Source: Candidatus Micrarchaeum acidiphilum ARMAN-2 (GTDB lineage: Archaea; Micrarchaeota; Micrarchaeia; Micrarchaeales; Micrarchaeaceae). From it: a stretch of DNA of 64,000 nucleotides. The stretch's first letter is position 1; every line of letters starts with the position of its first letter. Made by a program: the position numbers and the translations under genes. The stretch lies in the NCBI GenBank assembly GCA_009387755.1, contig GG697241.1, forward strand, positions 186,001 to 250,000, given 5' to 3'. The notes below the pieces were generated by a model. It had not been told where the DNA came from. It searched no databases and saw only the letters and a list, made by a program, of their open reading frames with translations. Positions 6,522 to 61,160 of this stretch are shown piece by piece.

Positions 6522-6594
6522 GGGGCTGTACGCTAACCTGGCAGACTTCCAGCCTCGGGCGCTGGATATCCGAGTTCAAATCTCGGCAGCCCCA
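6522..6594 (+). tRNA. tRNA-Pro (anticodon CGG)
   Basis: A 73-nt cloverleaf without intron. Acceptor GGGGCTG pairs with CAGCCCC, followed by discriminator A. The anticodon stem is CCAGC/GCTGG around loop CTCGGGC, giving CGG at 6556-6558, and the T-arm is CCGAG-TTCAAAT-CTCGG. The D-stem is weak: G11-C24 and T13-G22 can pair but position 12-23 is a C/A mismatch. It has the same length and arm layout as the processed form of the second tRNA-Pro (GGG) at 61050-61160, whose D-stem pairs properly. CCA is not encoded. Confidence 0.85.
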
Positions 6595-59341: not shown

Positions 59342-59437
59342 CGGATCTGGCGGGATTTTCATGCGTAAAGCTGCATTTTGAACCCGCAACCATTCGGTCC
59401 GAAGCCGAACGCGCTGTCCAAGTTGCGCCACAGATCC
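59342..59437 (-). tRNA. tRNA-Arg (anticodon TCG) with T-loop intron
   Basis: Acceptor GGATCTG/CAGATCC with discriminator G, a perfect D-stem GCGC/GCGC, and anticodon stem TTCGG/CCGAA around CTTCGGA, giving TCG. The T-stem GCGGG/CCCGC encloses 28 nt rather than 7: TTCAAA, then about 21 nt containing the hairpin ATGC...GCAT, then T. Removing 21 nt restores TTCAAAT and a 75-nt tRNA. The intron therefore lies in the T-loop, near position 59/60. Confidence 0.85.
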
Positions 59438-60414: not shown

Positions 60415-61038
60415 TTATTGCGCCTGCTGCTTCATCTCGACCTTTGCTTCGAAGTCGTCCACCTTGTAAGCGAATTCCTCGTTGGCCTTTATGGTCCCCC
60501 TTTTCTTAAGCACTTCCCTTGCAAGAAGGTAGTAGACGAAAGCGAGCGACCTTCTCCCCCTGTTGTTCACCGGAACTATGAGGTCTATGAATTTGGTTAT
60601 ATTGTCGGTGTCGGAAAGTGCTATTATCGGTATCCCTATCTTGCTGGCCTCCTTTACCGCCTGCTTCTCGTTTCTAGAATCGCTTATGAATATGAGCTTG
60701 GGCTCCATGAAATTCTCCCTGAGCGGATTTGTGAATATGCCCGGAGTGACCCTTCCACGGATGAACTTCGCGTTTATGGCCTCCGCGAATTTTTCCGCTG
60801 CCGGTATGGCGTAAATCCTTGAAGCTGTCACTATTATGTCCTTCGGATCGTACCTGGCCACCATGCTGGCAGCTACGCTGACCCTTGAATCTATGGTTTT
60901 GAGGTCCAGCAGGTAAAGCCCATCGTCCCTAACCTTGTATATGAATTTCTTCATTCCCGGGGTCTTTACCTTTGTTGCTATATGTATTCCTGCCTCTAGG
61001 TAATCGTTCTGGTTTGCCATAAATGCTTCTTCGCTCAT
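60415..61038 (-). CDS. rps2: 30S ribosomal protein uS2
   Basis: 207 residues. Family blocks: DYLEAGIHIATKVKTPGMKKFIYKVR, DLKTIDSRVSVAASMVARYDPKDIIVTASR, RVTPGIFTNP, IALSDTDNITKFIDLIVPVNNRGRRSLAFVYYLLAREVL. AAGGTG precedes the ATG and starts immediately after the 3' end of tRNA-Pro, so the gene is read in the same transcript and freed by tRNA processing. It is last in the operon. No enolase gene lies between, unlike in haloarchaea. Confidence 0.95.
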   Translation of the reverse strand: MSEEAFMANQNDYLEAGIHIATKVKTPGMKKFIYKVRDDGLYLLDLKTIDSRVSVAASMVARYDPKDIIVTASRIYAIPAAEKFAEAINAKFIRGRVTPGIFTNPLRENFMEPKLIFISDSRNEKQAVKEASKIGIPIIALSDTDNITKFIDLIVPVNNRGRRSLAFVYYLLAREVLKKRGTIKANEEFAYKVDDFEAKVEMKQQAQ

Positions 61039-61049
61039 TTAAACACCTT

Positions 61050-61160
61050 TGGGGCCGCCGAGATTTTCAGCACATGCAAAGAGCGCTTTTGAATTCCCGA
61101 ATTTTTTCTCGGGTCGCCAGCACCCCAAGCTGGAAGCCTACCAAGCTAGCAGACGGCCCC
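61050..61160 (-). tRNA. tRNA-Pro (anticodon GGG), T-arm interrupted by about 38 nt
   Basis: Acceptor GGGGCCG/CGGCCCC with discriminator A, D-stem pairs G11-C24 and C12-G23, anticodon stem CCAGC/GCTGG around TTGGGGT, giving GGG. The T-stem CCGAG/CTCGG encloses 45 nt. Only TTCAAA (inner) and the final T fit the loop, so about 14 nt (AAAAAATTCGGGAA) lie before position 54 and about 24 nt after. Removing both gives 73 nt, the same as the intron-free tRNA-Pro(CGG). Two T-arm introns are the best reading. Confidence 0.75.

Follow-up and report, generated by a model that had tools for sequence, protein, structure and literature searches.

A tRNA-Pro(GGG) gene of Candidatus Micrarchaeum acidiphilum ARMAN-2 with two predicted introns in a single T-arm

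Multiple-intron tRNAs are known in the Thermoproteales and, in the portion of the source available to us, are also listed for ARMAN-1 and ARMAN-2 (PMC4033280). In tRNA-Ile(UAU) of Cyanidioschyzon merolae, intron removal is described as partly ordered, and T-arm introns are described as blocking the formation of Psi55 by Pus4 (PMC9602550, partial text). The structures PDB 4FZ2 and 9W2K are those of the epsilon-2 splicing endonuclease from ARMAN-2 (Candidatus Micrarchaeum acidiphilum), an enzyme for which the accessible parts of the published accounts report broad specificity and cleavage of relaxed motifs (PMC6379350, PMC12397907). In a literature search whose coverage was partial, and which left outside it the 2011 ARMAN-2 endonuclease paper likeliest to list the gene, no report of a T-arm interrupted by two introns came to light. 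Here we describe a tRNA-Pro(GGG) gene of ARMAN-2, located in a window (the whole stretch of DNA that was analysed) of 64,000 nt, which, judging from sequence comparison, very probably works and carries, within a single T-arm, a pair of small introns of the archaeal bulge-helix-bulge (BHB) type.

The predicted exons, introns and splicing motifs of the gene are listed in Table 1. All stems of the tRNA are intact, including the acceptor (GGGGCCG/CGGCCCC) and the anticodon arm (CCAGC-TTGGGGT-GCTGG), and the T-stem CCGAG/CTCGG spans 45 nt in the unspliced molecule, as an earlier note on this DNA had stated. That note had also proposed the removal of about 14 nt before position 54 and about 24 nt within the loop; both segments hold to the base, and the predicted product has a T-loop TTCAAAT and, as anticipated, the 73-nt length of the window's tRNA-Pro(CGG) (6522-6594). 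By eye, a paired T-stem combined with a standard T-loop arises only when the full CCGAG joins TTC. A split into 6 + 32 nt at an earlier TTC would give an identical mature tRNA, but was rejected, with no 4-bp central helix seen at its cuts and with the relatives in disagreement. The gene was missed by ARAGORN and by the Rfam tRNA model, by the latter at the gathering threshold as well as at E 1. Because the other two proline tRNAs read in the genome differ in anticodon (CGG and TGG) and the tRNA-Pro(GGG) query gave a single match in its own genome (G000), this is the sole GGG gene found. In many relatives, an S2-like reading frame starts 3' of the tRNA-Pro, based on flanks inspected by eye.

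Table 1 Coordinates of the tRNA-Pro(GGG) gene, its predicted introns and splicing motifs, and the adjacent gene, given as positions in the window
Feature	Position	Strand	Remarks
tRNA-Pro(GGG) gene	61050-61160	minus	111 nt unspliced; 73 nt without both inserts
5' exon, tRNA positions 1-53	61108-61160	minus	ends with T-stem 5' strand CCGAG; supported by intronless orthologues (L098, L147-L149)
Intron 1, between positions 53/54	61094-61107	minus	14 nt, AAAAAATTCGGGAA
Internal exon TTCAAA, T-loop positions 54-59	61088-61093	minus	six nt
Intron 2, between positions 59/60	61064-61087	minus	24 nt, AGCGCTCTTTGCATGTGCTGAAAA
3' exon, positions 60-73	61050-61063	minus	T60, CTCGG, CGGCCCC, A
Anticodon GGG	61124-61126	minus	
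Intron 1 central helix, exon strand CCCG (positions 48-51)	61110-61113	minus	4/4 pairs
Intron 1 central helix, intron strand CGGG	61096-61099	minus	
Intron 2 central helix, exon strand TTCA (positions 54-57)	61090-61093	minus	4/4 pairs
Intron 2 central helix, intron strand TGAA	61066-61069	minus	
Intron 2 inner helix, 5' strand GCGC	61083-61086	minus	
Intron 2 inner helix, 3' strand GTGC	61070-61073	minus	
Ribosomal protein S2 gene, directly downstream of tRNA-Pro(GGG)	60415-61038	minus	Pfam PF00318

Both inserts fit the archaeal BHB geometry, and each forms the splicing motif of its own that the earlier note had called for: CCCG/CGGG in intron 1, and TTCA/TGAA together with GCGC/GTGC in intron 2. 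Every bulge is cut after its second of three nucleotides. In intron 1, a central helix of 4 bp is accompanied by 3-nt bulges, AG/A and AA/T (slash at the cut), and a fifth pair, A52-T, can lengthen this helix in ARMAN-2. The stable inner helix of a strict BHB motif was not found in intron 1 of ARMAN-2, where only AA/TT is present; in some relatives, for example G007, G107, G109, G110, G111 and G141, the inner helix reaches 4-6 bp. Intron 2 has a 4-bp central helix, 3-nt bulges AA/A and AA/T, an inner helix and, as its outer helix, the T-stem. By these features of sequence, ARMAN-2 intron 1 is classed as a reduced, relaxed BHB motif and intron 2 as a full one. Folded as a whole, the T-arm has a modest z-score (-1.38).

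Motif statistics covered the six genomes with the 53/54 intron only and, within the order, every double-intron genome but G060, which was found later (45 of 46). Of the 51 intron 1 sequences (11-35 nt), 49 have a fully paired central helix, as do all 45 intron 2 sequences (11-27 nt); this conservation is partly built in because the search patterns presuppose motif parts (GGG and GAA). The inner helix was not built into these patterns. Among distinct loops, 11 of the 44 from intron 1 (shuffle mean 1.07) and 10 of the 36 from intron 2 (shuffle mean 0.90) contain an inner helix of at least 3 bp, with 0/2000 shuffles reaching the observed count in either case. Intron 1 is thus either derived from a full BHB intron or able to exist as one.

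A total of 164 genomes of the order were surveyed, and the orthologue was typed in 128 of these, leaving 36 untyped. Both introns are present in 46 orthologues, only the 59/60 intron in 72, only the 53/54 intron in six, and neither in four (G004, G133, G134 and G135), so that intron 1 is missing from 76 typed orthologues (the 72 and the four) and is the sole intron in six. The first three counts comprise 44, 66 and five genomes obtained by pattern search, respectively, to which were added G111 (orthologue read) and G060 (relaxed pattern) for both introns, G025, G106, G125, G126, G131 and G073 (orthologues read) for 59/60 only, and G109 (orthologue read) for 53/54 only. The intronless-pattern search gave 15 rows, four of which were counted; the remaining 11 either belonged to different tRNAs or had not been confirmed as Pro(GGG). 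Further orthologues were recovered with a query holding just 7 nt of intron 1 and then read by hand. BLAST with the tRNA-Pro(GGG) gene gave matches in 40 of 41 related genomes, several of which are other proline tRNAs. The double-insert pattern occurs in 44/164 genomes, representing 26 of 54 genera and two families, compared to 0/164 for the reversed pattern, and the layout is therefore not due to chance.

Intron 1 varies even within genera: in g16, G146 carries both introns, and G016 and G145 the 59/60 intron only, and mixtures are likewise seen within g7, g19, g30 and g49. The intronless copies (L098, L147-L149) read CCGAG-TTCAAAT-CTCGG, which is the predicted exon junction, and orthologues that lack one or both introns otherwise keep their exons intact, as expected of archaeal BHB introns. 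With the first only, the second only, both or neither present among relatives, the two inserts behave as independent units, and this distribution shows them to be real introns and not an error. The view in the earlier note that two introns per T-arm would be very unusual has to be qualified: the layout is common in this archaeal order, and multi-intron tRNAs in ARMAN-1 and ARMAN-2 are published, according to the part of PMC4033280 consulted.

A relaxed search showed that two genomes from other families of the class, G260 (L165) and G263 (L166), also match the double-intron pattern. At both loci, a third insert appears to lie close to the anticodon, in addition to the pair in the T-arm. A pattern match in G295 looked like chance and was left out of the counts. 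In G012 (L076/L093), the tRNA-Pro(GGG) sequence gives way after its 5' half to unrelated DNA containing a CATGGGG/CCCCATG match; the vicinity yielded no 3' half, and the genome was left untyped. Based on synteny, rpsB was found in four of eight genomes without a match, and no tRNA-Pro was seen by eye in three rpsB stretches (L161-L163).

Two other explanations of the locus were weighed. One continuous intron, with a valid T-loop obtained through another folding, would need just one splicing event, and a 5-bp hairpin CCCGA/TCGGG does exist, the TCGGG of which might form a different T-stem with CTCGG. This stem, however, has a loop of nine nt (AATTCAAAT), joining the outermost cut sites leaves one nt, and no single excision produces a 5-bp T-stem with a 7-nt TTCRANY loop. 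The occurrence of each insert alone in relatives (53/54-only and 59/60-only orthologues) refutes a single intron, to which we assign a negligible probability. The second explanation, that the gene is a degenerate copy or a pseudogene, or that the sequence was misassembled, would fit with the gene being missed by the standard finders, but is hardly credible given that all stems are intact, that no second GGG gene was found, and that the layout is common to 46/164 genomes in which the loops diverge and the splice motifs are kept. A continuous intron and a misread base were the alternatives put forward in the earlier note; neither survives, the former because it yields no T-loop and relatives carry the inserts separately, and the latter because the same layout recurs in 46 genomes.

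Lone T-loop introns with the layout of intron 2 (59/60) were also found in the tRNA-Arg (L003), tRNA-Ala (L004) and tRNA-His (L005) of ARMAN-2, and similar T-loop introns were seen by eye in a second tRNA-Arg (L006) and in tRNA-Cys (L010). In tRNA-Leu (L017), the T-loop insert is shifted by one position. L006 (window 59379-59437, minus strand) is a weak Rfam tRNA match corresponding to tRNA-Arg, the 3' half of which the model misplaces because the T-loop seems to hold a 59/60 intron. Several of the low-scoring tRNA matches L007-L011 resemble either incomplete copies or tRNAs in which the D-arm or T-arm carries an insert.

The orthologous tRNA-Pro of a neighbouring family, f2, has the anticodon AGG (A34) in 31/31 genomes read (loci L067, L069, L071, L080-L090, L094, L095, L100-L114, L130, L131, L150 and L167), and that of f1 reads GGG in 35/35 genomes read (3/38 were not read by the script). 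According to the available part of a review (PMC8007984), inosine at position 34 has not been found in archaea and no A34 deaminase is known there. A deaminase-family search (E <=0.01) gave matches in 3/14 f2 and 3/8 f1 genomes and therefore does not account for the AGG anticodon.

The genome encodes a splicing endonuclease that is identical to PDB 4FZ2/9W2K in 387/387 aligned residues and is, like ARMAN-2 EndA, a three-unit single-chain protein of the epsilon-2 type in which the Pfam domains were found, and an RtcB ligase is also present (E 1.7e-165). The identity of the endonuclease assigns the window to ARMAN-2 or to a strain nearly identical to it. In the two-intron reading, the endonuclease would cut the precursor at four places, RtcB would rejoin the exons twice, and the six-nt exon TTCAAA would be retained in the mature tRNA.

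The central helix of intron 1 occupies nt 48-51 and therefore cannot coexist with the T-stem. For the whole ARMAN-2 precursor, the folding model, applied with stepwise removal as suggested in the earlier note, gives a T-stem probability of 0.00 and an intron 1 helix probability of at least 0.99; the T-stem rises to 0.78-0.98 when intron 1 is removed, and stays at 0.00 when intron 2 alone is removed. Milder values (0.19, 1.00 and 0.12) are obtained when the T-arm is folded alone. Since the intron 1 helix excludes the T-stem, and the T-stem is the outer helix of intron 2, the likelier order in ARMAN-2 is plausibly that intron 1 is excised first and intron 2 afterwards. We see an even chance that the same two introns are instead removed without a fixed order, or with intron 2 first. 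Among 36 distinct double-intron T-arms, the T-stem is modelled as already formed in the precursor in 22 and falls below 0.5 in 14; it exceeds 0.5 without intron 1 in 36/36 and without intron 2 in 14/36, and the median probability of the intron 1 helix is 0.09. Intron 1 also occurs alone in six genomes and intron 2 alone in 72, indicating that neither depends on the other. The values of the ARMAN-2 precursor, with its T-stem restored only by removing intron 1, speak against a free or reversed order in this organism. Based on these models, an intron 1-first order is not a rule across the group. The central helix of intron 2 is weak in the folding model (0.02-0.05 with intron 1 removed), and the corresponding helices of tRNA-Arg and tRNA-Ala, where the T-loop intron is the only one, score similarly low (0.05-0.07). 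A stronger version of the intron 1-first order, which we consider rather unlikely, is that T-arm folding is a gated step: the intron 1 hairpin would hold the T-stem open until excised, its excision would build the outer helix of intron 2, and T-loop formation, modifications and end processing would follow two ordered splicings around the six-nt exon.

A series of both, either and neither intron at one gene in dozens of species would allow direct tests of intron gain, intron loss and splicing-order rules, and an endonuclease of solved structure is available for tests of splicing rules. The six-nt exon represents a hard test of archaeal splicing precision. ARAGORN and Rfam miss such genes in this group.

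The epsilon-2 endonuclease of ARMAN-2 (4FZ2, 9W2K) is the same enzyme as the one encoded here, and the accessible text of the published accounts contains no test on a tRNA-Pro(GGG) precursor. The multiple-intron tRNA genes of the Thermoproteales and of ARMAN-1 and ARMAN-2 (PMC4033280, PMC4390854) likewise have at least two BHB introns at non-standard positions per gene, but in the available portions of these sources no arm holds both, whereas in tRNA-Pro(GGG) the two introns are separated by an exon of only six nt. The tRNA-Ile(UAU) of C. merolae, whose introns lie at 12/13, 37/38 and 53/54, shares the 53/54 site and the presence of multiple introns, but belongs to a red alga and, as described in the partial text (PMC9602550), has a single intron per arm, compared to two in one T-arm here. 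Of the two introns of Caldiarchaeum tRNA-Thr(GGU), at 24/25 and 45/46, one is likewise present or absent among close relatives; these introns are, however, located in different parts of the molecule, according to the accessible text (PMC3293823), whereas those of tRNA-Pro(GGG) lie within one T-arm.
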